A stretch of DNA of 64,000 bases from Apostichopus japonicus (Eukaryota; Echinodermata; Holothuroidea; Aspidochirotida; Stichopodidae): contig NC_092570.1 of the NCBI RefSeq assembly GCF_037975245.1, forward strand, positions 2,313,501 through 2,377,500, written 5' to 3'. The notes under the pieces are model-generated. The model was given only the letters and a program-made list of their open reading frames with translations, did not search any database and had not been told where the DNA came from. Positions 2,560-23,904 of the stretch are shown here, piece after piece (within the stretch, counting starts at the first letter, position 1; the number at the start of each line of letters is the position of its first letter). The position numbers and the translations under genes were made by a program.

Positions 2560-4030
2560 ATCAAGCAAGATTGGTCTCAAATAGTCCAAGTAATTGTGGT
2601 CCTACATGTTCCCATAAAGTAACCAACACTATAGCCAACACTTTTGTGATCACAAAATGTGATCAGATTTTTTATCAAAAGGCACTTTTGAGATCTAAAT
2701 ATGGCGTCGAAAATGTAAGAAGTATAAGAGATCTACAAGCGTGTCAACAGATATGATAACATTGGTGACCTCAGATGACATGACCTTTAAGTTTCAAAAT
2801 GTTCCACCACCCCATTCACAACTTGTCCCAAAATATCAACCATGTCACACCTTGGCATTGAGATTTAATTGCATTAAATGTCAAAAAATTAACTTTAAAC
2901 TTGTATACATAACTTCACACACAAAGGTCACCCGGAGGTCAACCAATTGACATTTTTGATCGGTGAGACCTAAATAGAGCATGACTGTAAAAATTCAAAC
3001 ACTTTTTCTTTGCCCATTTTCTACCCCCAAAATACTACTTTTTTAACATTAGCTGACCTTTGGTGACGTTGGATCACATGACCATTAATTTTGAAAATAT
3101 TCCCCTATACCATTTGCAACTTGTCCAAAAAAATCAACCTTGTCACACCTTGGCACTGGGAGTTATTGCATTAAATGTGTGAAAATTAACTTTGACCTCA
3201 TATAACTTCGCACACGAAGGTCACACGGGGGTCAACCCATTGACATTTATGATCAAAAGGTACCTTTAACATCTGAAAATAGCATCGAAACTGTAAAAAT
3301 CCACAAAACACGAAAAGGTCACCAGAGGTCAAATTGAGGTCAGGGGGTCACCCAGATGCGGGTCGACAAATGGATTACATTGAAGCAACTCCCAACCCTA
3401 ACGGACAATTTGTTTTCAAGTTATCGCAAAAATACTAGTTTTTTTATCATTAATTGAACTTTGGTGACCTTGTATCACATGACCGTTATGTTGGAAAATA
3501 TTCCCCTATACCATTTGCAACTACTCCAAAAATATCAAGCTTGTCACACCTTGGAACTGGGAGTTATTGCATTAAATGTCTGAAAATTAACTTTGACCTC
3601 ATATAACTTCACACACGAAGGTCACACGGGGGTCAACCCATCGACATTTATGATCAGAAGGTACCTTTAACATCTGAAAATAGCATCAAAACTGTAAAAA
3701 TCCACAAAACACAAAAAGGTCACCAGAGGTCAAATTGAGGTCAAGGGTCACCCAGATGCAGGTCGACAATTGGATTACATTGAAGCAACTCCCAACCCTA
3801 ACGGACAATTTGTTTTCAAGTTATCGCAAAAATACTAGTTTTTTATCATTAATTGACCTTTGGTGACCTCGGATCACATGACCGTTAAGTTTGAAAATGC
3901 TCCCCTAACCAGTTCACAACTTGTCCCAAAATATCAATCTTGTCGCACATTGGCACTGGGAGTTATTGCAGTTTTAATATTTTCGGTTTTTGGACCATAA
4001 CTGACCTTTGGTGACCTTTGTGGGCACCAG
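2560..4030. repeat. ~400-bp tandem repeat, GGTCA-rich
   Basis: The words GACCTTTGGTGACC then GGATCACATGACC recur near 3055, 3455 and 3855, a period of 400 bp, with two nearly identical full units and a third partial one. A diverged, shortened copy begins near 2763. Each unit carries several GGTCA half-words, for example GGTCACCAGAGGTCA. No protein coding is evident. Confidence 0.8.
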
Positions 4031-4133: not shown

Positions 4134-4560
4134 AGACACACACACACACACACATACACACATACGCGCATTATGGTACTAGTGAGGACTCTGACTCCTT
4201 ACCTGCTTGTGAGGACTCCTACTTAGGTATACACTAGCAACTTTTAACGTCGTTACTGAGCATAATTCCACCATACTCTAACATACCAGCTATAGCAATG
4301 TTTGCATTTTCATTTCTTTGAGCATGTGATATTTCCTATATAACTGAGGACTAGCACACTACAGGTATTTAAAGCCTTCTGAGGACTTGCATGGGGCAAG
4401 TATTTAAAGACTTCCGAGGACTTGGATGAGCCAAGTATTTAAAGTCTTCTGAGGACTCCTTCACAAAGCGTATTTAAAACTACTAAGGACTCATTAACTT
4501 CTATTAAATGAATTCCGAGGACTCGCAAGTATCTCATACGGACTATCATATGTGACAAGG
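4134..4560. repeat. (AC)n microsatellite and GAGGACT-type repeats
   Basis: A short (AC)n run at 4134-4165 is followed by at least eight GAGGACT or close variants (AAGGACT, GAGGACTT). Between 4365 and 4530 they fall about 45-60 bp apart with an intervening AAGTATTTAAAG word. Related AGTCCTC/GAGGAC words occur again at 21470-22000. Confidence 0.6.
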
Positions 4561-5766
4561 AAATGGCTTCAGTGAGATGTTTTTTTCAAAACCGTGCTCG
4601 GACAATTGATTTATTTCTTGTTTATCTAGGGAATTCAACATCAATACCTTTTCAATTCACCACAAGTATGTTGGGTATGGAATGGGTGGTGAGGGAGTCA
4701 GTTCTGGTAAGGTGGGGTGGACATTGAAATTTTGCAATGGGGCATTGAAATATGTTAGAAGCTTTTAGGAAAACATCTCAGATTGTGCTATGAACACTCT
4801 AAAAATTAAAAATACTTCACATAGATGGACAAAGAAAAGATTACACATTTAAAAGTTCTGTCTTTCTTGGATAAGTTTAATGATGCCTGCTGCAGTAACC
4901 AAGAGTAACTTTTACAGATCATGCAGTGAGAGAGAATGTGTTCTAGAAACAATGAGTATTCTGTACTTCATATCATTTATGCAGCTATGAATGATCCTTG
5001 CAGCAATTGGTAAGAGTTGCATCAGACTAGGAGTTGTCAGTCAAGTCTCATACTTAAACAAAGCAGTTAAATCAGAAATCCATGGACATCAAACCTCTCC
5101 TGTTGATTAAAACATAATGAAATAGGGCCATTCTCTGGCATATGAACTGACAGGAAATCAATTCAGTTTTTATCAGAACCCAACTACACAGTTTCTATAT
5201 AGATTAGATTGTTTTTGCTTTAACTATATCTAGAAATAATTTTCAGTAGTTCACTTTCACATGGATCATGTTTTTACTTAGTTCAGTAAAGTTTCGTTTC
5301 CTGAGGAAAAGATTTCTGTTCTAATTCTTCATTAATACTGGATGCTAATTAGCATAATTATGATGTCACACATATGACCAAATTATCACGAAAGTTTTCA
5401 TTAAAAGTAATTAGTGCATCTGACCTAATGTCCATACAGGACATGCAACTTTTCTTGGTAAAGACTGTTCTTCTGCAAAATATCTAGTCAAATACTTATT
5501 CCAACAATTAATTAATAGAATAAGTGGTCACATGTGTGACACTGAAGCCTCACTGGGCTGATGCTAACTGTTTGCACTACGGATGTATTGTAGAACTTCA
5601 TTCATATTGTAAACGTATCAGATCCAATGCTGTCAACTAGCTTTCTAAAACAATGTCCCTGAACTTATTTTTGGTAAATTGGGGGAGTGTTTGTTGTGTA
5701 AACTCCATGGCATACTGTTCTCTACAAGACTACCTTCAACAATATGAGATAAAATGTAGACTTATT
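4561..5766. other. intergenic, no gene seen
   Basis: AT-rich sequence without a supportable exon, RNA gene or mobile element. Confidence 0.5.
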
Positions 5767-5963
5767 ACTAGGTCTACTGACTTCTACAGCATTAAATACA
5801 ATCCCTTCTCTGTCAAAACAATAACTAAAAAACAAGCTTACAGCTTGGTATAAGGGTGTCTAAAAACTAGGTCTACTGACTTCTACAGCATTAAATACAA
5901 TCCCTTCTCTGTCAAAACAATAACTAAAAAACAAGCTTACAGCTTGGTAAGGGTGCCTAAAAA
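5767..5963. repeat. 99-bp direct tandem duplication
   Basis: The segment beginning ACTAGGTCTACTGACTTC at 5767 recurs at 5866. The first about 84 bases are identical and the copies differ only near the AAGGGTG(T/C)CTAAAA ends. The near-identity marks a recent duplication. No conserved protein is evident. Confidence 0.85.
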
Positions 5964-6745
5964 TTTAACCTGGCAACATGCAACATCCACCTGCCATTTT
6001 GCATTGCTCCTGATTGGTACCAAATGTGTAGGCCTAGCTGAGACCCAATCTACACTATACTGTACATTAATCTCTGGTCAACCATGTAAGTAAAGTGTAC
6101 TCGACAGATCTTTTTACTTTTAGTATCAGCATTATTCATCTCAGTCTTAATAAATAGTGTTGAAAAGTCTCTACCATGATTATTAGACTATTGCTCAGAC
6201 AAAACAAAATGGCAATGATACCTGTTGTATAGTGTAACTGTAACTTCACTAAATTTTGCAAGATGTTAGCAGTTTTGGTTAAACATATATAGTAATTGAG
6301 TTACTTAGAAATGTCTTAATTGGTCTCAAGATTGGAGGCTTGTTACATACTTATCATGCAAATCCAATAAAATCCCACCTCCCCCCCCCCCCCGCAAATT
6401 GTTGGAGGGTTTGGTAAAATTAATCCATTTAAAATTTGATTGTCTTTACTAGGCTTTTCATCAAGACATTCCATGTACTCAATGAACAAAAACAGCTAAA
6501 AACAGAAATCTGTGAACACCAAAACTCTTTGTTTAAAACACAAAACAAAATAGCAACAAAAAAAAAAGTTTGAAATAGCAAATACTGTTGTATCTGAAGA
6601 CATGCTGAAGGCAAACTGTCCAGGTAAACGTAGAGGCAAAAACGTTGGCATTATTGTAAGTGGCAAAAGTTCACTCTCTGAGATGATTTTGTCAGGTACA
6701 AAAAGGTTTAAACTTTGTAAAATGGCCACTTCAGCTTACACAATT
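5964..6745. other. intergenic / 3' flank of the SET-recombinase-like gene
   Basis: Contains a C-run near 6380 and otherwise AT-rich DNA. It should include the 3' untranslated region of the minus-strand gene that stops at 6746, but I could not place a convincing poly(A) signal. Confidence 0.4.
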
Positions 6746-6948
6746 TTACTTCTTTTTCTGCTGAATGATGTTGTAAACTTTATACTTTATGCTCTTCCAG
6801 TCTTTGGTTGCAAGAGCTGGATATTTTCGCCTCAATGCTTCGCACTCAGACTTTCTCGGAACCCTTTGAACCCGAATATGTTTTTCAAAGTGTTTTTCAA
6901 TTGTTGCTGTTTGGTTTCTTCTCCATCTGACTCTTTGTTTAGGACTGC
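6746..6948 (-). CDS. C-terminal basic domain exon
   Basis: Acceptor TTTATTTGCAG at 6948; stop TAA at 6746-6748. Encodes [20 protein letters not shown], then [20 protein letters not shown], then [10 protein letters not shown]. The layout (W at the start, a conserved V-P-x-K-x-E-C, then W-K-x-I-K-x-x-V-x-N) is a small helical module I recall at the C terminus of related recombinase-like proteins. It resembles Myb/SANT-type DNA-binding helices, but that is inference. Confidence 0.72.
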
Positions 6949-7119
6949 CTGCAAATAAAAAAAACAATGGTAAAATATAGTCATCACATTCATCAATGTT
7001 AAAGCTGGAGTTCTTTTTTGTTGCTTTTTCAAGTTTTGGGCATTCTAATGCATTATTCAAAATAGCAGACAATGTTGTATAAAATGATTCTATGGCAGCT
7101 GATATACAATGGTATTAAA

Positions 7120-7165
<46 letters not shown>

Positions 7166-7964
7166 TATTCCAATATATTTTCTAAAACTTACTCCTTATT
7201 TGTCAATTATGAGTCATATCTTATTTCTCTGGTTTTGTCTAATAATATATATATATATATATATTTACATAAACAAGAAAGAATCAGGACTGCAAGAAGA
7301 GTGCTCTATGCTATAATAGCAGAGCCTAAACATATAAGTATATGCCTTGGTAAGTACAGCTGTAACTCGGAGTTTCACGCCCTTAGGGTGGCGATCGTCA
7401 GACAACTGAACAAATACTCGCTGCGCGGGTATATTCTATGGGGAACACGAACCTTATTTCTTACGTGCACGGTTCATTGGTTTGAGCCTATTGTGGCGAC
7501 ACTTGGAGATGAATTCAGATCTCTTATTGAGTAAATGCGGGTTTTTAGATAGGAGGATACAGAGCTTCTCATCAATACAAAGGTTACATTGACCGGATCT
7601 ACGCATGCGTGTATTGGAATGCTTAAATACGTTCCACTAAATAACGAAGGGGGCACCCTTACGCTTCAGGTCCCATATATGTTTGGAAAGCTCTGTTTCT
7701 CTCTCGTAACGCTCATGACGTAAGGACTTACTGTGGTTACTGTACCTTTGCTTAAAGGGGCCACTCGATAGCCCTATGTATGATTTGGTGTCATGACCAG
7801 TAGTAACATCGGCCCTATATATGACACTGCTCACCAAGCAAATCCCGTTGAGGGGGCAATTATGTTTTTCTCTACAATTGCATATGAACTGTGCACGTAA
7901 GAAATAAGGTTCGTGTTCCCCACAGAATATACCCGCGCAGCGAGTATTTGTTCATTTGTTCAGT

Positions 7965-8042
<78 letters not shown>

Positions 8043-11000
8043 CCACATTGCTCTACTTAACTGACCTTTCTTTTTAGTTGATGCATGGCTGTCACTCTCT
8101 TCTTCACTTTCGTGAATTTCATTTTGTCCTTCCTTGTCTTCAGTTTCCAAATCTTCTTCATCATATGGTAATTCAGATTCTCCCTCTGATTCATCAGTAT
8201 AGCTTGGATCTAAGCCGAATAATAATTAGAGATTAATTAAGAGCAAGCAATAGTATGATGCTACTCAAAACACTCTACTGTGGACCAGGTACTTTATCAT
8301 TAATTCAATAACATGACATTTTTGACACAGCTGACATAATGCATCAAGAGGGAGATAACAAACTTTATATTGGGATTGTAGAATAGAATCTTCACTCACC
8401 ATCAAGAGGAACCTCAATTTCATCTAACTTCTTGTCTTTGAACTCCCCCACAGCACCCTTCTCCATTAATAGAAGCAGTCGTGCCACTTTAGCCATTTGT
8501 AGAGTATTTTCGGGCAGTCTATAATATTCTCGATGCACACGTATGTCATGCCCTAAGAATCCCGCCAGGACATCTAATTCATGGTCCTTCAAACATAGGA
8601 TCTGGGAAACAGTGGCAATTTGTTTTCTTAATTTTGTTGATGTGAGGTTAGACGGATGCTTTGCACCTGACTTCAGTGCATACTTCCGTATGCAATCAGC
8701 TCCCCTCAATGGTTCCATAGAAGAGAAGTTTGGGCGGGCAAAGAAATAATCATTCGTCTCGCTGACTCCAATGAGGGTTCTCTTAGCAGCCAACAGTTCC
8801 ATCACCTGTACCATTTCCTTTGTGAGAAGGACAGGCACTTTTCTCCCTCGTTTTCCCCTGATCTCAATGCGTTCAAGCTTGTTACACAATGTCTTCTCCC
8901 AAGATGATAGAGAGTCCATTACATCATCATTTCCTTGATCATGACATCTGCGTTCAAAGTCAGCCAGCTTTATTCTTTGCACTTCACCACTTCTGCGTCG
9001 ATTGAAGAGAATTAGCTTGCTCAGAGTTGCTTCAGCTAATGCATACCATGCTGTTACATCATCAGACAAGGCCAACAGCTTCTGTTTCTCTTCTATTACC
9101 TCAGACAATTTAGCGTGTAGTTGTCTGATGTCCTCTGATAGTGGTAGCATGTTTGGCTTGTTCCACTTGCGTTCTTCCAGTGTTGTCCTGGCACCTGTTC
9201 CCACTTTATGAGCCCACTCAATAACTGCCAGCTTTGAAAATTTATCTGCCTGATCCTCTTTAACTGGATCTTCTGATTTGATGCACTCAGCCTTCACAAT
9301 CAAAGCACATGTCTGAAGTGAATGACCCAACTTAAGAGCTAACGATGGTGTCTTATACTTCCCAGTTTGGGGGTCTAATCCTGCCAGGTTTCGAACAGCT
9401 TCTAATACCGTATCAAACTGTTTTGGACTAATACAGTCATATAAGGACTTCACATCAGGTTTTGTTTCCTTGATTTTCAGCAGTAGTCTTGCAAGTTCAC
9501 GCATTTTCTGACTAATGTAACCCACTTGATGTCTTTCATGACCTAGTTTGGCAAACATTCGTTCCCCATACTGAACAATAATGTGATCATGTCTAGCAGC
9601 AAACGATATGCTATCGTAAGTCATAGATGCAAAAACTGTGTCTTTAAAACTCTGTGATACTTCCTGTGAAAATGGTAGGAGCAGAGCAGATGTTGACTGG
9701 TGTCTCTTGTCTTTCATGGTTGACTCAGATGCCATGAAACAATTCTTCTTATGCTTCCATAGGTTATCTCTGGAGAAGTAACCAAAGCAGAGGTTACAGG
9801 GAAGGAACTCATCATGTGACTGGTCAAAAGGTGTCCGTCTTGCAGGAATCAAACAGCCACTGCCAGACTGCCAAACTTCAACATTATGGCTATGGTTCCC
9901 CTTGTTTCTTAACAGGGTTAAGAGTTCTTTACGCTTACATGACCCCTTTATCGTAACTCAAAGCTTCAGCAACTTCTTTTTCCTTCAAATGAACTTGTTC
10001 AAGGTGTCTTGGGAGTTTTGCATAGGTTTTCATACAGTACACACAGTACTGGTGTTTGTCCCATTTCCTTTTCCCTTTGTTGTGTGTTTTCATGACCTTT
10101 ATGCTGGAAGAAGCAGGTGCAACATTTTCCTTTTCACATCTTTTTCCTGGCTTAGACCCCCTGGCATCCTCAGCTTCAACATCACTCTCTGGTGACCAGT
10201 TACCAGCATCGCTGCTACTGTCTTGTTCTATGTGATCATGCGAATTGGAAACAGTAGCGGTGGTTCTCAACACTGCAGAATCCTTTTTGTTTGGTGATTT
10301 GGAGGATTCAGTTGATGTTTCTCCCCAAAGACTACTTCCAAGTCGTCTCTGTTGTGAAGTTGGCATGGGAATGATGTATGAGCAATCACTGTCACTATCT
10401 GAGTATGGCACAAGTGTTGAAAAGATTCCCTGTAAATGGAAGCAAACAACGTGCATGAGAGTTTTTATTAATGATACAATGACATAGTTGAGATCTTAAT
10501 AAAAGTAAGGAGTGGTTCAATAAAGAAAATGTAAACTAATCTACAACCTTTAATAAGTAGCCAATGAAGTAGTCATTTATGTGAATCAAAACAATGAAAC
10601 ACACCAACTAATTTAAAATATAAATTTACTTCATCACTCATATCTTAATGCTGTGATTGATATTATCTAATGAGAGTCAATGGATAACTAACAGGTTGTT
10701 ATGATTAATGACAGTTTCTTCGTCTAAAAATGTTATTGTTATTCACTTTCTACTTGATTGTTAAAATATTATATACCTTTCCTCCCACTGCGATTTCATC
10801 AATGTCACTTTCATCATTTTCACTTTCATCTAAAGGGATAACACCTCCCCCAGAAGTTATGTCACAGCATTTGTCCTGCAATTGAAGAAATATGACATCC
10901 ATAATAACCAGTAATGGCAGTTCACTCAGCCAATCTTACAACATTACCACAAAATGGTCTACGTGCATTTGGGAAACAAAATGCCCTCATTCTTACTTAA

Positions 11001-14000
11001 TGAAGCTCTCTGAGTAAGAACATTTAGTTTAGTTCAATGCCACCTAACAAGATGAGAGTTACTATTTTAAAGACAGAGCTGTGTGTTAACAAAAATCAAA
11101 GGAATTGGTTCTTTTGAGGACCTATCTGACACAACTACCAATGTAAAAGGACACAAATGTACAACAAGCTTCCTTATATTGTTAATGGTGATATAAGGAA
11201 ATCAATAGCCAGAGTGTCTGATTTTTGTACATCAATATGTCATAACAAATGTAACAGACAGTAAAGCAATGTTTCTACTTGCACAATAAACATACTGTAA
11301 GGTCCTCCCATTGATAGTCTTATAGGACTTTATCAAACTACACATTCAAGCTTTGGAGTTTAAATCACTGAACCATAGTGAATATTAATATCTAACACTA
11401 TACAAGCAACACAAGTGGTGTATAACATATTGGAACTCTTGCGCTGTTTACTGAAGATATAATGAGATATGCATCTTTAACATTATTTACTTTCCATAAG
11501 ATCTTTACAATATTACTGAATTACCTCTCCTTCATTTGTGGTTTCATCAATGTCACTTTCACCATCTGCGTTTTCATCAAATAGGGGATCACTTCTTCCA
11601 GAAGTTGAGTCACAGCATTTGTCCTGCAATTGAAGAAATATGACATCTATAATAATCCACAGAATGCCCTCATTCTTACTTAATGAAGCTCTCTGAGTAG
11701 GAACATTTAGTTTAGTTCAATGCCACCTAACAAGATGAGAGTTACTATTTTAAAGACAGAGCTGTGTGTTAACAAAAATCAAAGGAATTGGTTCTTTTGA
11801 GGACCTATCTGACACAACTACCAATGTAAAAGGACACAAATGTACAACAAGCTTCCTTATATTGTTAATGGTGATATAAGGAAATCAATAGCCAGAGTGT
11901 CTGATTTTTGTACATCAATATGTCATAACAAATGCAACAGACAGTAAAGCAATGTTTCTACTTTCACAATAAACATACTATAAGGTCCTCCCATTGATAG
12001 TCTTATAGGAATTTATCAAACTACACATTCAAGCTTTGAGGTTTAAATCACTGAACCATAGTGAATATTAATATCTAACACTACACCAATCAATATTACA
12101 TGAAACAAGCAACACTAGTGGTTTAAAACATATTGGAAATCTTGCACTGTTTAGTGTGAAATATAATGAGATATGCATCTTAAATATTATTCACTTTCCA
12201 TAAGATTGGTACAACATTACTGAATTACCTCTCTTTCATTTGTGGTTTCATCAATGTCACTTTCGTCACCCGCACTTTCATCTAATAGGGGATCACCTCC
12301 TCCAGAAGTTGAGTCACAGCTTCTTTTCTGGAATTGAAAGAATATGACATCCATAATAACCAATAATTGCAGTTAACTTAGCCAATCTGACAAAATAACC
12401 AAAAAATGGTCTACGTGCATTTGGGGAACAAAATGCCTTCATACTTCCTAAATGAGGCTCTCTGAGTAAGAACATTTAGTTTAGTTCAATGCCACCTAAC
12501 AAGATGAAAGTTACTATTTAAAAGACAAAACTGTGTGTTAACAAAAATCAAAGGAATTGGTTCTTTTGAGGACCTATCTGACACAACTACCAATGTAAAA
12601 GGACACAATAAGTACAACAAGCTTCCTTATATTGTTAATGGTGATACAAAGAAATCCATAGCCAGAGTGTCTGATTTTTGTACATCAAAATGTCATAACA
12701 AATGTAACAGACAGTAAAGAAAATGTTACCACATGCACAATATACATAAAGTCCTCCTATTGATAGTCTTATAGGAATTTATCAAACTACACATTCAAGC
12801 TATGAGGTTTAAGTCACTGAACCATAGTGAATTTTAATATCTAACACTACACATATAAAAATTACATGAAACAAGCAATACTTGTTGTTTAATTGGAACT
12901 CTTGTGCTGTTTAATGAAAATATATAATGAGATATGCATCTTTAACATTATTTACTTTCCATAAGATCTTTACAATATTACTGAATTACCTCTCCTTCAT
13001 TTGTGGTTTCATCAATGTCACTTTCATCATCTGCGTTTTCATCTAAGAGGGCATCACCTCCTACAGCAGTTAAGTCACAGCATTTGTCCTGCAATTGAAA
13101 GAATATGACATCCATAATAACCAGTCATGACAGTTTATTCAATCTGAAAACATATATTCAAAATGGTCTACGTGTATTTGAGCCACAAATGCCTTCATAC
13201 TAACTTAATGAAGCTCTCTGAGTGAGAACATTTAGTTTAGTTCAATGCCACCTAACAAGATAAAAGATAATATTTAAAAGACAGAGCTGTGTGTTAACAA
13301 AAATCAAAGGAATTGGTTCTTTTGAGGACCTATCTGACACAACTACCAATGTAAAAGGACACAAATGTACAACAAGCTTCCTTATATTGTTAATGGTGAT
13401 ACAAGGAAATCAATAGCCAGAGTGTCTGATTTTTGTACATCAATATGTCATAACAAATGTAACAGACAGTAAAGCAATGTTTCTACTTGCACAATAAACA
13501 TACTGTAAGGTCCTCCCATTGATAGTCTTATAGGAATTTATCAAACTACACATTCAAGCTTTGAGGTTTAAATCACTGAACCATAGTGAATATTAATATC
13601 TAACACTACACCAATCAATATTACATGAAAAAAGCAACACTAGTGGTTTAAAACATATTGGAAATCTTGCACTGTTTAGTGTGAAATATAATGAGATATG
13701 CATCTTAAATATTATTCACTTTCCATAAGATTGTTACAACATTACTGAATTACCTCTCTTTCATTTGTGGTTTCATCAATGTCACTTTCGTCACCCGCAC
13801 TTTCATCTAATAGGGGATCACTTCCTCCAGAAGTTGAGTCACAGCTTCTTTTCTGAAATTGAAAGAATATGACATCCATTATAACCAAAAATTGCAGTTA
13901 ACTTAGCCAATCTGACAAAATTACCACAAAATGGTCTACGTGCATTTGGGAAACAAAATGCTCTCATTCTTACTTAATGAAGCTCTCTGAGTAAGAACAT

Positions 14001-17000
14001 TTAGATTAGTTCAATGCCACCTAACAAGATGATAGTTTTTATTTTAAAACAGAGCTGTGTGTTAACAAAAATCAAAGTAATCACTTCTTTTGAGGACTTA
14101 TCTGACACAACTACCAATGAAAAAGGACACAAATGTACAACAAGCTTCCTTATATTGTTACTGATGATATAAGGAAATCAATAGCCAGAGTGTCTGATTT
14201 TTGTACATCAATATGTCATAACAAATGTAACAGACAGTAAAGCAATGTTTCTACTTGCACAATAAACATACTGTAAGGTCCTCCCATTGATAGTCTAATA
14301 GGAATTTATCAAACTACACATTCAAGCTTTGAGGTTTAAGTCACTGAACCATAGTGAATATTAATATCTAACACTATACAAATAAAAATTACATGAATCA
14401 AGCAATACTTGTTGTTTAATTGGAACTCTTGTGCTGTTTAATTAAAATATATAATGAGATATGCATCTTTAACATTATTTACTTTCCATAAGATCTTTAC
14501 AACATTACTGAAGTACCTCTCCTTCATTTGTGGTTTCATCAATGTCACTTTCACCATCTGCATTTTCATCTAAGAGAGCATCACCTCCTACAGCAGTTAA
14601 GTCGCAGCATTTGTCCTGCAATTGAAAGAATATGACATCCATAATAACCAATAATGACAGTTTATTCAATCTGAAAACATATATTCAAAATGGTCTACGT
14701 GTATTTGAGCCACAAAATGCCCTCATTCTTACTTAATGAAGCTCTCTGAGTAAGAACATTTAGTTTAGTTCAATGCCACCTAACAAGATAAAAGATAATA
14801 TTTAAAAGACAGAGCTGTGTGTTAACAAAAATCAAAGGAATTGGTTCTTTTGAGGACCTATCTGACACAACTACCAATGTAAAAGGACACAAATGTACAA
14901 CAAGCTTCCTTATATTGTTAATGGTGATATAAGGAAATCAATAGCCAGAGTGCCTGATTTTTGTACATCAATATGTCATAACAAATGTAACAGACAGTAA
15001 AGCAATGTTACTACTTGCACAATAAACATACTGTAAGGTCCTCCCATTGATAGTCTTATAGGAATTTATCAAACTACACATTCAAGCTTTGGAGTTTAAA
15101 TCACTGAACCATAATGAATATTAATATCTAACACTACACGGATAAAAATTACATGAAACAAGCAACACTAGTGGTTTGAACATATTGGAAATCTTGCACT
15201 GTTTAGTGTGAGATATAATGAGATATGCATCTTTAACATTATTTACTTTCCATAGGATCCTTACAATATTACTGAATTACCTCTCCTTCATTTGTGGTTT
15301 CATCAATGTCACTTTCATCATTTGCATTTTCATCTGATAGGGGATCACCTCCTCCAGTAGTTAGGTCACAGCATTTGTCCTGCAATTGAAAGAATATGAC
15401 ATCCATAATAACCAGAAATGACAGTTTAATCAATCTGACATTACCACAACTTGGTCTACGTGTATTTGAGCCACAAAATGCCCTCATTCTTACTAATGAA
15501 GCTCTCTGAGTAGGAACATTTAGTTTAGTTCAATGCCACCTAACAAGATGTGAGTTACTATTTTAAAGACAGAGCTGTGTGTTAACAAAATCAAAGGAAT
15601 TGGTTCTTTTGAGGACCTATCTGACACAACTACTAGTGTAAAAGGACACAAATGTACAACAAGCTTCCTTATATTGTTACTGGTGATATAAGGAAATCAA
15701 TAGCCAGAGTGTCTGATTTTTGTACATCAATATGTCATAACAAATGCAACAGACAGTAAAGCAATGTTTCTACTTGCACAATAAACATACTGTAAGGTCC
15801 TCCCATTGATAGTCTAATAGGAATTTATCAAACTACACATTCAATCCTTGAGGTTTAAGTCACTGAACCATAGTGAATATTAATATCTAACACTATACAA
15901 ATAAAAATTACATGAAACAAGCAATACTTGTTGTTTAATTGGAACTCTTGTGCTGTTTAATGAAAATATATAATGAGATATGCATCTTTAACATTATTTA
16001 CTTTCCATAAGATCTTTACAATATTACTGAATTACCTCTCCTTCATTTGTGGTTTCATCAATGTCACTTACACCATCTGCGTTTTCATCTAAGAGGGCAT
16101 CACCTCCTACAGCAGTTAAGTCACAGCATTTGTCCTGCAATTGAAAGAATATGACATCCATAATAACCAGTCATGACAGTTTATTCAATCTGAAAACATA
16201 TATTCCAAATGGTCTACGTGTATTTGAGCCACAAAATGCCCTCATTCTTATTTAATGAAGCTCTCTGAGTAAGAACATTTAGTTTAGTTCAATGCCACCT
16301 AACAAGATAAAAGATCATATTTAAAAGACAAAACTGTGTGTTAACAAAAATCAAAGGAATTGGTTCTTTTGAGGACCTATCTGACACAACTCCTACTACT
16401 ATTGTTAATGGTGATACAAGGGAATCAATAGCCTGATTTTTGTACATCAACATGTAATAACGAATGTAACAGACAGTAGATAAATTCTACTACTTGCACA
16501 ATAAACATACTGTAAGGTCCTCCCATTGATAATCTTATAGGAATTTATCAAACTTCACATTCAAGCTTTGAGGTTTAAATCACTGAACCATTGTGAATTT
16601 TGATATGCAACACTACACCAATCAATATTACATGAAACAATGAGCTTCCTTAATGAAGCTCCCTGAAGTTATGAGTAAGTTCTATATGCCACCTTATAAC
16701 ATGAAACTGACTACTTTAATGACAGATGTGTCTACAAAATTGTCTGAGGACCTTTCTGACACAGCAATTGTGTAACAATGTTACAAAAATGAAAAGTAAA
16801 CCACCTACGACAAGCTTCTGTGAGCAGCGGTGAGAGCAGACTACATAGCATCTGGACAAACATGATGTTACATTAAACCAGACCCTTAACTACTGCTTAC
16901 AATCTAAATTAAGGCAAGTTTTATAGTGAAAGTGAATCTATTGTAGGTTACAAAACATATGGGAGACTTGGACATGTTGAAAAGCTGTTGATACTTCATG

Positions 17001-20000
17001 TAAGCCAACCTCAAACTGAAGTGAACAGACACTTACTAATCCTATTCACTTCATTTCAGGTGTCTATTGACCTCAGTTTGAGGTTGGCTTACATAAAGTA
17101 CCTCCCTGAAACAATCAAATAATTATAACAGCCTAGTTACTTATTCACAAGTCGTTCTGGTCTCTGTTGTTGTTTAAACTGTGCACCAAGGGTTAAAATA
17201 TCATCATAATAATAATATGCTTGTGCCTGTTTAATATGTAAAATTCATTTCAAGAGAACTGAGAATTATCAGCAGTAATTTATTTTCTAACTTACTTGTC
17301 TCCATTCTGCGTCTGGATTTCCATAGTCATATCGAATCTCAGTCCCCTTTTCAATTTTTTTCTTTGAATATATAAATAAACGGGGAACGCCATGCACCTC
17401 CACCTTCTTGACAAAGGTATTTGCTTGAGTTTCTTTAGCATCATTTATGTATCGTGCTTTTGAGGTTGTGAAGTATGCATCAATGCTTTGGAAAGAAGGA
17501 AATATAAAATGTACAAAGTACAAAGTACAGAATCAGAACCGTCTTTGCTTTGCTAAAACTAGAAAGTAAATACAAATTCAAAGTTAGGTGTTGCAATATG
17601 ATGCATTTACATGACTTAAAAGATAGTCCAGAAGAAAGTTTGCCCTGGACTATCCTTCTAAAGTAGCGACTATAACTGTCATATCACATACAAGCTTTCC
17701 ACGGTTAACTCTTCCATGTCTAAAACAACATCTAATCGAAAGATGATATATCATTCAATATACTCTACTAAACATTCCAAATCTCAAATTAACAACAGGA
17801 GGATGAATGGAGGATTCAAGGTTTAAAGCTAATTATTTAAATAAGATACATTTTTCAAATATCAAATATAATTCCCAACCTTCTGGTACATGCATTTGTT
17901 TATCAAAACAGTAGTGATTCTCCCTGTTTTGGGCTTATTTCTAAAGTTACTCATAAATTGTAAAACAGCCACAATTTTGGAACATAAGTACACCATTGTG
18001 AGACTAGACTATAACTAATGACAACGATGATAGGTTTTCTTGGACCGTTATTGGCAAGTTTGTGCCTATATTCACACATATCATCAGACTTGATGAAACC
18101 AATACAATAATCATGATGCATTATCTGTTGAATGGGGAGGGGGACGACTGTTACTGTACAGAGAGAACACAACATACCACAAAAACTTTCCTTTGTGTTG
18201 AAAGGAAAACAAGTAATCGCTTCTGTTAGGACTTTCAGATTCCAGATGTGCTGCATCATTGTCACTTAGCAGCTTTCCACAGTATTCTAACAGTAATGTG
18301 CCTCCTTCAAAGTCTTTTTTGGCAAACAGACCTTTCCCTGTGTATTAGGAAATAAAGATTTTCCTAGCTGCTTTGTTTTCCACGGTCATCTACGATAGGT
18401 TTCTAGCCAAAACTCTTTCAATGCTAAACAGGATGGTCAACACCTGAGTGATCAATTTTCAGCAGTCATATGAAATGCTTTACCAAGTGAAAAGCTATTA
18501 CCAATATACCAAACTGAATTGTTGACATAAACGTAAATCAATTTACATCAATAATAAACTTTTATCTCCAACTGTGCTGTATGTAACGCACAACTTTCGA
18601 TGACCCCCCCCCCCCCACATCCACAAGTAAGATGTATTAAATAAATCAATGTAAGTGGTTCTTACCTATGTAGGAGTTAATGAATAGTACTTCAAAGTCT
18701 TCATCATGAGTTGTGAATTCAGAAGTATTCTGTGAAGGATGTAAAAGGTAGCATCTTTTATATTCTTTACTACCAGTTGTGGGAAATGTTCTACTAATTC
18801 TACTTCTAGTTCTTACTTCTTGTACTTCTTGTTCTACTTCTTCTAATTCAGCTTGAAATAATCTTAATTCTCAAAGACTTGTTTACCAGTTCAGGTTGTG
18901 CCCAGGAAAGGGATTCAAAACTAGCTTTGGTCAATAAACCTTTTATTGTCATTTTTGTTTGAGTAATTGAAACGTATAAAAATGCATTGTAACGCCCATC
19001 ATCTTGCCAATTTGAGTAAAAAATAAACAGTATTTAGTTAAGGTAAAATTTTAACATCATTAAAACAACATTCTAAACACCCATGTGAAACTGGTGACAT
19101 ATGTGAAATAGTCATTTTTAAAAAGTCTGCCTCAAGCAGTGGCAGTGCTATGGGGGAGGGGATGGCAATTTCCTCCCTCCTCCAATCAGATCTTCTACTT
19201 ATCGAAAAATATAAGGAGCTAGGCTAATGGCAAACTCCGCACATTAGACCCCTTCCCCATATCAGTGTTATATTTTTAGCACTCCCCCATTAAATATATA
19301 GCTTGACCCCCTTGTTGCCCCCCAGAATTGCCATGGCTGGTGCCGTGCCACTGGCCCCAAGAAATAAAAATAACAAAACAAGAGAAGGTAGTTGTGGTTG
19401 TCCAGCAGGTAAGGAGGAAATCAATGAGGAGAGAAGAGGGTATCAGTATGATAATTATTAATTAAATACAATATGGAAAGTTTAATGGTGCATTAAACTT
19501 TTCAACTGCTGAAAATATGTTATAAACATTGGTTATAATTTCCAACACAACTCAAACACTGTCTAAAAATTGCAAGTAAGATGAGTTAGCAAGAAATTTT
19601 TTAATTGAACACATGACATACAGTACATGGGAACTGAAGAAAGTAATTGCATGCACTGCTAGAAACAGATGGCAATATTAGAAAGCAGGGAGGATTCAGC
19701 AGCCTGGGGAGGGAGTTAGGGAGGGGTTCCATTCCCATTGCTTTTCATCGCTTTTTCTTGCAGTACAAAATACAAATTGCAGTCTTATTTTAAGCCAGCT
19801 CTTTGAAAAATGCTATGTAACCCTCTTTCCTGGGATACTACTTGAGATGACAGTGGCAGAGCTCCTTCAATGAAGAAATCACAGGAACCTATAATATGAA
19901 ATCACATGGATTGCAACTTAAGTCATATTGTCTTGGGGAGAGTCATAATTTTTTGGGGGCACCTACAGCAAGGAGGGTCTATTACATGGAGAGGTCACCT

Positions 20001-20751
20001 TCTTCATGAATCATGATTTCTGGAAAACTTTGTCTAAAGCCTCTCTAAACTAGAGCTCCATGTTACTGCTGTGGCCTAGCTTAGGAGTGAACGAGACAGT
20101 CCATGGGGGTCTAACATTATGATAAACACACGAACAGTGCAGAAGGATCTTGCCATGCACATGGTTACTTTTGAATAGGCATGAAACTTGATTACAAGCC
20201 AATATTGACTTACAATATAATATGTCTGCAACATAGACAACCAATTCATTTATATATAACTGCAAAAGAAATCCATTGAATTACTTATGTTTGTTCATGT
20301 TGTGTACAAGCAACATTCTAGAAGTCATTACAAATACTGTACTATAATGTTTCATTACTTGAGCAATGAGCATGCCTGTGCAAGCTATTTGCCTTAGGTC
20401 TGGTCAATATGGTCACCACATCCATATCACATGTATTACTAATCAACTATTTATAAATTTATGTCACACAGGTAGATCTATACAGATATCAATAATAAAT
20501 CTAGTAAGAAATATTCCAAACAATATATTCGGTTGTTAATTGGCATTATGGTAATAATCCTTAAGATTTGTCAATTAATCGTCATCTAAATATTCTGGGA
20601 GCCTCCTGGGGGGAGGGGGGGGCATCTTTGAAAAAATGATCAACAATGAAAATGGTTAAACAGCTCAGGCTAAAGGTTTAACAAAGTTAACATAACTGCA
20701 CTGAAACACAAGTTCCATTTCAATCCTTACCTTGAGCCTCCTTCTCGCCAT
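6746..20751 (-). CDS. SET domain / acidic repeat / zinc finger / tyrosine-recombinase-like fusion protein
   Basis: Proposed coding exons in transcript order: 20751-20731, 18729-18666, 18337-18178, 17485-17296, eight 99-nt exons (16134-16036, 15379-15281, 14615-14517, 13852-13754, 13088-12990, 12327-12229, 11623-11525, 10875-10777), 10429-8400, 8209-8066, 6948-6746. All have AG/GT borders and matching phases, except that 10429-8400 has one surplus base. With that base discounted the product is about 1,200 residues: SET (about 25-145), acidic repeats (146-409), zinc fingers plus recombinase-like domain (about 410-1086), acidic linker, basic C-terminal domain. Likely nuclear. Whether it methylates anything or acts on DNA is unknown. 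Similar zinc-finger/recombinase-like proteins are, to my recollection, common but uncharacterised in fish and marine invertebrates. The link between SET and recombinase parts rests on phase and order, not on transcripts. Confidence 0.7.
7119..7263. repeat. (TA)n microsatellites
   Basis: Two (TA)n runs, about 7119-7161 and 7241-7263, to the left of the Penelope-like fragment. Confidence 0.9.
7394..7966 (-). mobile_element. Penelope-like element 3' fragment (GIY-YIG), with inverted ends
   Basis: The minus strand from about 7880 to 7465 reads [52 protein letters not shown], then after one TAG stop [16 protein letters not shown] and [12 protein letters not shown]. This is the GIY-YIG endonuclease and C-terminal tail of Penelope-like retroelements. 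The stop makes it a pseudogene. The about 70-bp 3' tail (GTAAGAAATAAGGTTCGTGT...) follows the frame at 7470-7399 and also appears inverted at 7893-7966. The element lies among (TA)n microsatellites in the last intron of the SET/recombinase-like gene. Confidence 0.85.
7967..8040. repeat. (TA)n microsatellite, 74 bp
   Basis: An uninterrupted TA run directly abuts the inverted 3' tail of the Penelope-like fragment, as expected if the element inserted into, or generated, a TA tract. Confidence 0.95.
8066..8209 (-). CDS. acidic linker exon
   Basis: Acceptor CGGCTTAG, donor AAAG|GTCAGT. Encodes [14 protein letters not shown] and further Glu/Asp-rich sequence, ending SHASTKKK. Joins in phase to the recombinase-like exon (GAT|G) and the last exon. 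The acidic tract is likely disordered. Confidence 0.72.
8400..10429 (-). CDS. zinc-finger and tyrosine-recombinase-like exon, with a +1 frameshift
   Basis: Starts after a CATTTACAG acceptor. It begins with a Ser/Asp-rich acidic segment, then a KRKW basic patch and a C2H2-like finger ([20 protein letters not shown], about 9995-10050). After the break at 9943-9946 it reads [20 protein letters not shown], a second finger (CNLCFGYF...HKKNC, about 9735-9800) and a helical region. Its C-terminal half resembles tyrosine recombinases: [17 protein letters not shown] and [16 protein letters not shown] match the Arg, H/T-x-x-R and H...Tyr boxes. The box-2 histidine is replaced, so activity is doubtful. 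Crypton transposons are the likely source. The exon ends GATG|GTGAGT. Confidence 0.78.
10777..16134 (-). CDS. eight symmetric 99-nt acidic exons (33 residues each)
   Basis: Each exon is exactly 33 codons in phase 0-0. The shared pattern is CD, a T/S-G-G-rich turn, then D-P/A-L-L-D-E and [10 protein letters not shown], ending near GE before GTAATT-type donors. Six copies start DKCCD (16134, 15379, 14615, 13088, 11623, 10875); two start KRSCD (13852, 12327). The product is a 264-residue acidic, probably disordered segment with one or two cysteines per repeat. Its role is unknown; it could be a flexible spacer or an acidic interaction region. Symmetric exons allow variable inclusion by splicing. 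Confidence 0.8.
10777..16640 (-). repeat. eight-unit tandem array of an exon-plus-intron unit
   Basis: Units of about 704-764 bp repeat head to tail. Exon 3' borders fall at 16036, 15281, 14517, 13754, 12990, 12229, 11525 and 10777. Each unit holds one 99-nt exon with its own acceptor and donor, and an intron sharing long near-identical stretches, for example the region around TGTGTGTTAACAAAAATCAA and the AACAAGCTTCCTTATATTG region. A partial ninth intron lies near 16320-16640 with no exon. The array expands the acidic part of the gene. Confidence 0.9.
16998..17094. repeat. perfect 22-bp inverted repeat, 53-nt spacer
   Basis: ATGTAAGCCAACCTCAAACT(GA) at 16998-17019 has its exact reverse complement at 17073-17094. 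It can fold into a hairpin in the intron after the SET exons. It may be a small foldback transposon remnant; I see no clear target-site duplication. Confidence 0.75.
17296..17485 (-). CDS. SET domain, C-terminal part
   Basis: The exon starts after a CTTTCCAAAG acceptor, completes a Cys codon (CIDAYF) and reads [17 protein letters not shown], then HGVPRLF and [10 protein letters not shown], ending CAA|GTAAGT in phase 0. The layout matches KMT5A (SETD8)-type SET domains: C-x-D-A, R-x-I-N, G-V-P-x-L, then G-x-E-x-x-Y-D-Y-G. The YDYG tyrosine is present, but the usual N-H-S after R-x-I reads N-D-A, so catalytic competence is uncertain. Confidence 0.82.
18178..18729 (-). CDS. SET domain, N-terminal part (exons 2 and 3)
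   Basis: Exon 18729-18666 encodes a short acidic segment ending in NSYI; exon 18337-18178 continues with [20 protein letters not shown]. This is the classic opening of a SET domain: G-x-G-L-F-A, then an acidic-hydrophobic strand ending in E-Y-x-G. It ends in [14 protein letters not shown], equivalent to the strand before the cofactor-binding core. Acceptors follow CTTCACAG and AATACACAG; donors are GTAAGA and GTATGT. SET domains transfer methyl groups from S-adenosylmethionine to lysine. Confidence 0.8.
19137..19353. mobile_element. hAT-like MITE, 217 bp
   Basis: Ends CAGTGGCAGTGC... and ...GTGCCACTG form imperfect terminal inverted repeats. Flanks GCCTCAAG and GCCCCAAG agree at 7 of 8 positions, the length typical of hAT target-site duplications. 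Non-coding; lies in intron 1 of the SET/recombinase-like gene. Confidence 0.6.
20731..20751 (-). CDS. proposed first coding exon, MARRRLK
   Basis: The ATG at 20751 lies in GCCATGGCG, a strong Kozak context. It is followed by six codons and the donor AAG|GTAAGG. The exon appears to begin upstream at a TTTGTAG acceptor near 20774, so a separate 5' untranslated exon is needed. A good candidate donor is GTCG|GTAAGG at 21619, in CpG-richer DNA. The short basic start suits a nuclear protein. The assignment to this gene depends only on position and phase 0. Confidence 0.5.
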
Positions 20752-21459
20752 GGCCACAAGCCAAATGTCTCGCTACAAAGATAGATTAAAATTTAATTGA
20801 TCATGATAACTCTATGTGTAGCCATGTCAACACACAAAATTATGATATCCAATCAAGGCCATGGTATAAAATTTCCAAAATTAAATCATCCACCCATTGG
20901 TAGCTGACATAGGGTAGCAAACATAAGTCCACTATGATTCTTATAATTAATCTAAAGCTCTCCTCAGAGTTAAAGAATAGTATCCAAATTGGCCTGAATT
21001 CGAAATTGCCAATACCACCATCAACAGTAATACAATTGTAGTACAAGTGATATTCATCACAAATTGATAAAACTAAATCAAAAACATCGGGACACTCCAT
21101 GTAGAGATATCCTTGTGCCATTTTATGCTAGTACTGTAGTACAAGTAGGCCTAGGCCTACTGTAGGTTAATTATTGGGCTATTAGGGATAGGCCAACTGC
21201 TACTTTACAGAATGCGTCACATTTAAAAGTTACGTGAGCCGAGCCGAACAATCTTAACTTTTGGCTACACAAGCGAGGACCTAACGTTGTGAAGTCGGAT
21301 TATTACTAGGCGTGGTATATATTAACTAAACTAGGCCTAGGCTAGCATAGGTATATACCTAAACAGTTAGTTTGTGTTACAAAGGCTTAAGATATTATAG
21401 CATTAATAATATCGCTAAACGTTAGGCTACTGTATTGAGGTCTGACCTATCTAACGCTA

Positions 21460-22085
21460 CCTACTACTTTGAGTCCTCACCTGTCACGAAAAACCATATT
21501 CACAATTTCACATACAAAGCCAAGTCAAACTTTTGATTTACCCTAAAACAAAACTATTACCTGACCAAATCTAAGTTGGAAATGAACGAAAGAAATGTAA
21601 AACAGGAATGATCCTTACCGACGTGATTAATTGAGTGACGTTTTCCTTCAAGAATTCAACGTGTGTGCTTACGTACGTAGATTGCGTAGCGTTCCGTCAT
21701 AAACTTACCAATTAGCGAGGACTCGGAGCGCGCGAAAACTTTTTTCACGTAATGTTCAAATTGGGGGCGCTATTAAATTATCGATAGGTGTGTGACTTAC
21801 TGGTCATTGAAACTGTGTGTAGGCAGTAACACAGATTCGTAATTTACGATCCAAACGTGGACTTTGCTAAAACTTCGTCAAGATAACAGGGGGGAAGCTT
21901 TGTTGTGGTTGCACGTATATTCTTCCGAGGACCCGCATTTTAGTCCTCGCTTGTCATTTTGGTCCTCGGTTGACGGGTGTGTTATCAGGTCCAAGTCCTC
22001 GGTCAGCTAGAAATGTAAACGCATACATACACACACACACACGCCAACCTGACTGCATAGGTTCCTTTTGCTAAAGCAAGGAACC
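21460..22085 (-). promoter_or_regulatory. probable promoter region of the SET/recombinase-like gene, with GAGGAC repeats
   Basis: Raised CpG content (for example TCGGAGCGCGCG near 21725) and a candidate 5' exon donor GTCG|GTAAGG at 21619 suggest transcription starts leftward from about 21650-21730. AGTCCTC/GAGGAC words at 21470, 21717 and several times in 21925-22005, plus an (AC)n tract at 22026-22043, resemble the 4.1-4.6 kb repeats. No TATA box is assigned. Confidence 0.35.
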
Positions 22086-23904
22086 AAAAACAAAAAGAAG
22101 AATCAAAACCACTAAGAACTAATTCTGGCAAACTTTAATGCATATTTTACATTTTTTCTCTCTAGCAAGTAATTACATTCCACTAATAACAAGGCATAAC
22201 AAAAGGCAGACAATGCTAAAATGAAAACCAAAGACCCAGTCCAGCAGTTTATCCATGGGATTACGATTTGGGGCATAGGGGCCACAGGGCCATGGCCCTC
22301 CGATAGTTTTGGAGCAATTTTTTCCACAAAGGCTAGATGCTGCCCAGGTGGCACTTTCAATGGTTCCTGCCCCCTCCCTCCCCCTCCCCCAAACCTGTAA
22401 CAGAGGTCCTGCATAGGTCTGTTACTCCATACATCTTTCATACATTGTTGCCCAAAACCTTTCTTACATTATTATCGCCACATCGCACAAAATGTTTAAA
22501 TCACTGTCAGAAGAAAGTAATAAATTTTTGGAAAAAATGAAAACCAAAACAACGACAACTTCCTTTCACTATTAAACTTTGCAAGCTCCATTTACCACAC
22601 TCCGCAAAGTCTGATGAAAAACATGCATGATTTTTTAACCACTTGAACTGCTTCCTGGAATTTGATTCGCGAAGGACATGAGTAAGACAATTCGGTTAAG
22701 TCTTCGGTTAGCCAACCGCCACAACTTCGTAGCATGATAAACCTTTTATATGAAACTCTCAAAGAGTTTCCAAAAGAAATTTCAGAAACAAGAAGAAAAA
22801 AAAAAAAAACCAAGAAGTTTACTTCTTGGAAAGGGGAGCAAGCTCACCAGGATTTGGACCTAGTTTACAGCTGTATTGAGATGTAAATTTGGCTAAGCAA
22901 TCTTTAAACATGATTGGATACAACATCAGTCTAACTAAAAGTTTAGTTAAAGAATAGTAAAATAGTCAAGTATTAATTACCTAATACTGAATTTTTTGTA
23001 TGCATCCTAGAATATTGGCTTATTACTTACATTTTGCAAACCTCTGAAATTTATATCTTACTTCAATAATTCCCAGGTTAATTTTGATGGGTTAAATTAA
23101 AAGAAATTATATATTTTTCGTGAATCTCATGTTCCATTTAATGGTCAAGTAAGATGTCACGAGATTGAAGAAAATTCGTCGCAAAATTAAGCTTTCAAAG
23201 ATTCTCAGGGGTTTTAAATGTTGTAAATTACAGAATATGTCACAAATTATTTGACCTAACATTCCAACCTGATTCATTTAGGCCTAGTCAGTCAGCATTT
23301 TTCAGTCGAATTGATGACAAGTCTCGGACAAAGTTTTGCATAAAGAAACAATGCACTGAGTGAGTACGTAAAAATGGTAATTTTGAAGTTTTTTTCATGT
23401 TTTTTCAACAGGTTATAATAATACATGTAATAGTTTTCAGCCTCTCTGCGAAGGTAGAAATTCTGGACTTATTTATGTATAAGATGTTGTGATGTAAGAA
23501 CTTCAAGAAAGTGAAGAAAAAAAAGCACTTCATAAAGATTTAAGAATCTAGTGCAATCAATGACGAATGATAATTGAATGGATTCAATTCCTGCTACGGG
23601 ATTGGTTAAAAAGAGTTTGGTCAATTCTGTAACCTGATTGAAACCTGTATACATTCTTCCATTAATTACATCGCCATCTAATGGCTATGTCAAAACTAAA
23701 ACCGCCAAAATCACACACACCGACTGTTCTTCTTTGTATAATTAAAAAATCAACAAAGTTTTCCACAATTTCTACAATTTTTAACTTTCTGGTGAGAAAT
23801 TTTCTTTCGTTTCATGTTGGCTTCATCTTGCTTGTCTGTCTCTCTTTTCATCCTTGCACGTACGAGAAATCAGAATTTGGGAGGAAACAAGTAAACCAAG
23901 ATGC
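22086..23904. other. intergenic between two minus-strand genes
   Basis: No supportable exon. Contains a pyrimidine-rich C tract near 22370-22395 and an A-run near 22797. The 3' untranslated region of MED14 should occupy the right part. Confidence 0.45.

Follow-up and report, generated by a model that had tools for sequence, protein, structure and literature searches.

Intronic exon arrays of a SET-recombinase mobile element in Apostichopus japonicus carry the motif that crowds the element's ends

We analysed a 64,000-nucleotide stretch of the Apostichopus japonicus genome (NCBI RefSeq assembly GCF_037975245.1, contig NC_092570.1, positions 2,313,501 to 2,377,500 of the forward strand; here called the window), the minus strand of which holds eight predicted 99-nt exons arrayed in tandem with their introns. 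We find that this array lies inside a multi-copy mobile element of about 17.9 kb, with borders in GT runs and a unit number that varies between copies, and that the differing array units of three element subfamilies each carry a motif that is also clustered at the ends of the element itself. Within a single gene, the array is flanked by a KMT5A-like SET domain on one side and the domain of a tyrosine recombinase (YR) on the other. We lean, at somewhat better than an even chance, towards a reading in which the amplified entity was a motif-bearing cassette of the intron, with the symmetric exon tolerated as its passenger. Genome searches cover a single genome of 671,581,487 bp in 35 contigs, in which the window copy of the element is that on contig C10.

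Along the minus strand, to which all features below belong, array exons 1 to 8 were called from pattern and open frame at window positions 16036–16134, 15281–15379, 14517–14615, 13754–13852, 12990–13088, 12229–12327, 11525–11623 and 10777–10875, and the neighbouring exons on both sides of the array join in phase 0. An earlier, sequence-only reading had described eight such units, each with one phase 0-0 exon between working-looking splice sites, and this description is confirmed: the units start 704–764 bp apart, every exon has AG/GT flanks, with CAATTnCAG directly before it and GTA directly after (8/8), and all eight are open in frame 0, the sole frame of which this is true, with frame 1 also open in one of the eight. 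The open exons exceed chance, because among 3342 window-by-frame combinations of 99 nt in the introns just 8 stay open without indels in all seven units compared. A strict pattern applied to the five copies of the element recovers 36 exons, of which 35 measure exactly 99 nt; the remaining one, in the C7 copy, has 100 nt. A genome search with the array-exon peptide finds 37 places in five clusters on five contigs, none of them with a stop.

The mobile element that hosts the array had escaped the sequence-only reading, as had a frameshift near window position 9,950. Its five homologous loci (contigs C10, C1, C7, C16 and C17) are about 94–99% identical and have common borders, which place the window copy at 4139–22019 with an uncertainty of some 30 bp within the GT runs in which they fall; in C7 the 5′ border is only weakly GT-like. 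The window element is ~99% identical to the C1 and C7 copies and ~94–98% identical to the longer pieces of those on C16 and C17. The 5′ junction (22020–22090) consists of a GT run and about 50 bp of a dispersed repeat that is common to C10, C16 and C17 and runs uninterrupted elsewhere. A hand-joined flank query of length 166 spans the junction at C18:12106041-12106213 over query positions 1-165; among the 57 matches listed, from 40 scored of 3422 candidates, the hits are other copies of the repeat rather than an allelic empty site. Five loci with common borders and an uninterrupted flanking repeat therefore identify the locus as a mobile element whose insertion site is a GT run in an abundant dispersed repeat, and the 3′ flanks of related elements of the L014, L016 and L017 types show, by eye, a matching target. 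A 401-bp tandem repeat lies at 3029–3970, just past the element's 3′ end, adjoining the abundant dispersed target repeat.

Several exons and a SET domain of cellular type would also suit a host gene with tandem exon duplication and no mobile element at all, but the common borders of the five loci, the related places in the genome (at least 85) and the uninterrupted target repeats leave that explanation a minimal probability, and we reject it on the element copies and their borders. An assembly artefact is an unlikely source of the array, because the assembly is built from HiFi reads and the identical eight-unit order recurs at three loci; the published HiFi assembly of the species is given as 671.60 Mb in 34 scaffolds and 23 chromosomes (PMC10344927).

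Unit number differs from copy to copy. Eight units are found on C10, C1 and C7, ten on C16 and three on C17 (two by the strict pattern), in line with the earlier claim that a symmetric exon-plus-intron unit can change in number without damage to the frame. The unit order is identical in the C10, C1 and C7 copies, and the array has therefore moved with the element; in C7 the first spacing is 5452 bp instead of 755. A second subfamily (L014 type, with a YR 55% identical) has amplified a different phase 0-0 exon, of 108 nt, in units of about 1.07 kb, with eight units on C8, seven on C9 and eight on C3, eight, seven, four and three at the loci on C16, four and two at those on C17, and one each on C2, C1 and C7. 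This exon occurs at 55 places, two of which are pieces of one broken exon, and 53 of the 55 are without a stop. In a third subfamily (L016 type, YR 45%) a 200-bp unit has been amplified, and five loci hold 16, 17, 22, 30 and 2 exact copies of its 29-nt core (87 in total, with 0 in the control); we find no exon of 54 nt or more that keeps its signals in every unit of this third array.

The common trait of the three arrays is the terminal motif. When the arrays are excluded from the end regions, which for the third subfamily means the 3′ end only, the top 6-mer is GAGGAC in the window subfamily (13 observed, 0.42 expected) and in the second (6 observed, 0.37 expected), and GGGGAC in the third (11 observed, 0.58 expected). 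The same 6-mer occurs 2, 2 and 1 times per array unit, respectively, against totals of 2, 1 and 0 in the remaining interior (10.05, 8.8 and 9.4 kb), while the other variant of the motif is present 0 times per unit in each array. In the window copy, seven GAGGAC/GTCCTC sites cluster at 21280–22005 towards the 5′ end (7 in the first kb, 0.21 expected, 0/500 shuffles) and seven more at 4184–4527 towards the 3′ end (7 in the last kb, 0.30 expected, 0/500 shuffles). Each of the seven introns between the array exons (10876–16035) holds two such sites, and two sites per array unit are reached in 2 of 500 shuffles of the window-subfamily unit; over the five window-type copies, at least two sites are present in 31 of 31 inter-exon introns, one of which has four owing to extra DNA. 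The second subfamily has four sites at its 3′ end (0/500 shuffles) and two in each array unit (3/500). A prediction for the third subfamily, written before its data were seen, is borne out in the motif core alone. Retention of the motif is perfect in 16 of 16 units from the C10 and C16 copies taken together. Other subfamilies also have clusters of the motif: L017 carries GGGGAC clusters on both sides of its gene, and GAGGAC occurs downstream of the YR domain at four sites in L015, where it is tied with two other 6-mers, and at nine in L018, whose element end is not placed with certainty.

These counts bear on the alternative of neutral, satellite-like growth, in which an intron that tolerates change would expand by unequal exchange or slippage, the element's copying would spread the result, and neither motif nor exon would have a function. 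Such growth fits the wide variation in unit number between copies and the tandem repeats that the 3′ ends also hold, but not three arrays of differing units that all carry their own end motif in the variant matching the subfamily, nor the rarity with which shuffles reach the motif count of a single unit, and we judge it decidedly improbable. The short tandem repeats of the 3′ ends, at 4361–4457 in the window and in the L016 and L017 types (35, ~55 and 24 bp), carry GAGGAC or GGGGAC, as if the motif attracted tandem duplication wherever it is located.

The exons themselves had been read as a device for modulating an acidic segment. Acidity holds for the window-type exon, with aspartate or glutamate at 13 of 33 residues (one unit counted), and fails for the array exon of the second subfamily, which has 7 acidic and 5 basic (lysine or arginine) residues of 36 and is not markedly acidic. 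The proposed purpose finds no support, either from this second exon, or from the third array with its lack of a sizeable exon, or from the comparison of exon copies that the sequence-only reading had suggested. The ratio of nonsynonymous to synonymous differences per site (pN/pS) is 0.99 over the array exons, calculated from the 20 distinct sequences among 35, and 0.90 for those of the window, and exon divergence is not below that of introns, so protein-level constraint on the array exons is not found. Over seven units the divergence is 0.113 in exons vs 0.074 in introns, with 71 of 557 intron windows reaching the exon value; over all eight exons it is 0.141 vs 0.070, a gap that shrinks over seven units, and in C16 it is 0.097 vs 0.070. 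Over the final third of the exon there is almost no variation (divergence 0.014). The frame of the array exon is kept, and its sequence largely is not.

Selection at the protein level is the other explanation to be weighed here; the array would then form a module that joins SET to recombinase and can be adjusted by splicing, and the number of exons would tune the protein. It would account for the 35 of 36 exons that keep both length and frame, for the amplification of a different and mostly stop-free symmetric exon in the second subfamily, for the nearly invariant last third, and for the repeated coding sequence that the L015 to L018 types have in the part of the protein matching the array position (L017 by eye). 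It is harder to reconcile with pN/pS values near 1, with exons that diverge more than their introns, even if some intron windows reach the same value, with two amplified exons that look unrelated and of which one alone is acidic, and with a third array lacking an exon of at least 54 nt. A survival filter would in any case be expected to leave symmetric exons, given that the introns on either side are phase 0. We consider selection of this kind rather unlikely, if worth keeping in mind.

In the reading we prefer, amplification of a motif cassette with the exon as passenger, the element's own DNA-binding protein would bind the end-type motif, and tandem duplications in the intron would be kept, or caused, since each multiplies a motif site. 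This multiplication may act by regulating the element or may arise by recombination at the sites. The 99-nt exon would ride along, as only symmetric exons would survive between phase 0 introns, and each added unit would lengthen the linker between SET and recombinase. Several observations weigh against this reading. The 5′ end of the second subfamily is weakly enriched, with 2 sites and a count reached in 15 of 500 shuffles; the exact form predicted for the third subfamily, AGAGTCCC, is found once at the 3′ end of that element, where the clustered core is GTCCCC; and motif retention is unexceptional, being matched by 141 of 660, 434 of 919 and 90 of 194 windows in the three arrays. The L015, L017 and L018 types have neither a tandem intron array nor the motif between SET and YR, and the array is therefore not required by the element. 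Finally, kept frames and symmetric exons amplified in two subfamilies would also fit a role at the protein level, and short exons are possible in the third array, with nine segment-and-frame combinations of 27–51 nt to choose from. A broader proposal, which we offer tentatively and rate as falling short of probable, is that this SET-recombinase family keeps and grows end-motif arrays in the intron between SET and YR, with coding repeats as a by-product, and that the array either responds to the dosage of the recombinase or owes its growth to that enzyme. Dosage sensing might take the form of titration, or of a switch between a SET-only and a full-length protein.

In the gene that contains the array, the two exons for the KMT5A-like SET domain are followed by the eight array exons, then by a large exon that encodes zinc-finger-like motifs together with the YR domain, and finally by two further exons, the first of them acidic. 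The first half of the SET domain lies at 18178–18337 (Pfam SET, E = 2.7e-05; splice sites) and the second, which ends in phase 0, at 17296–17485 (Pfam SET, E = 1.5e-07; donor identical in 5/5 copies). They are preceded by a probable exon at 18666–18870, of which the 3′ boundary is fixed by a donor at 18666 found by pattern in 4/5 copies, and 18870 is a provisional 5′ limit. The large exon occupies 8400–10429 and has, in the window copy, the frameshift near 9,950, from which C1, C16 and C17 are free; C7 did not fit the pattern used for this comparison. The acidic exon after the recombinase (8066–8209) has splice sites identical or nearly so in 5/5 copies, and the last coding exon, with the stop codon (6746–6948, from copy comparison), has no Pfam match. 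Near the element's 5′ end a 93-aa frame at 20840–21121 is open in 5/5 copies, has no match in Pfam at E 0.1, and is possibly a second protein of the element. An insert flanked by TA runs and with inverted arms lies at ~7123–7970, between two element exons; one of its frames, which has no Pfam match, recalls a GIY-YIG motif.

A comparison of the SET domain with the PDB gives KMT5A/SETD8 in all of the best 14 rows (best E = 1.1e-14). The active site of the KMT5A SET domain carries an N-H motif; the window reads YIND where KMT5A has INHS and thus lacks it, and by eye the motif is ND in L014 and L015, and NH in L016, L017 and L018. The SET domain of the window subfamily resembles KMT5A, but its activity is doubtful. 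Each of the six subfamilies read has a SET domain upstream of the YR, recognised in five of them by eye only.

Five residues of the YR, R319, K366, R441, H467 and Y476, do not vary among the 20 relatives that were selected from the 85 listed places and aligned, and they may belong to the YR boxes; at the usual HxxR position the histidine is replaced and the sequence reads T438. Phage_integrase (PF00589) is matched by 4 of these 20 relatives, with a best value of 5.3e-05, and not by the window protein itself in the Pfam search. A sequence search of the PDB finds no solved recombinase structure matching the YR, and a single-sequence structure model has a mean predicted local distance difference test score of 37.4, too poor for use. 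Among four copies of equal length, C17 being excluded for its length, YR pN/pS is 0.12 on few changes, so that the YR, unlike the array exons, shows protein constraint; the YR of C7 and of C17 holds a stop. The window has three stop-to-stop frames of at least 150 aa, two of which are the YR gene, no search aimed at reverse transcriptase having been made. In viral contigs, a search for relatives gives 44 pattern matches with 0 confirmed cases, and phage records contain no match. Contig C17 (37.2 Mb, ~5.5% of the assembly) holds 26 of the 85 listed YR places, mostly at 12–25 Mb and many of them broken, and this concentration perhaps marks a heterochromatic or sex-linked region.

Parts of this arrangement have counterparts in known systems. 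SETMAR is a SET-transposase fusion and likewise joins SET to a mobility enzyme, but it is a domesticated single gene with a mariner transposase, whereas the present element is multi-copy with a YR. In Dscam-type animal genes a phase-matched exon is tandemly duplicated together with its intron; the present array differs in belonging to a mobile element whose copies within one genome hold different numbers of units. The piggyBat transposase is DDE-type, and we know of no motif array within an intron of its gene. In piggyBat, too, repeated recognition-type sequences adjoin the transposon ends, where they are proposed to restrain activity (PMC11707139). Crypton DNA transposons, as treated by Kojima and Jurka (2011, PMC3212892), are likewise animal elements with a YR as the sole recognised mobility enzyme; unlike them, the present element is ~18 kb long and has a spliced gene with a KMT5A-like SET, subterminal motif clusters and internal arrays. 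The main text of that article contains neither 'methyltransferase' nor 'microsatellite' (PMC3212892). Our literature search turned up no description of a YR transposon fused to a KMT5A-like SET domain, though one may exist.

The element joins a chromatin-modifier domain to an animal recombinase. Multiplication of an element's own motif would offer a concrete cause for the birth of repeated coding exons; here the amplified exon differs between two subfamilies, and a third array shows none of sizeable length. It would also give a testable model of how such elements may regulate themselves.

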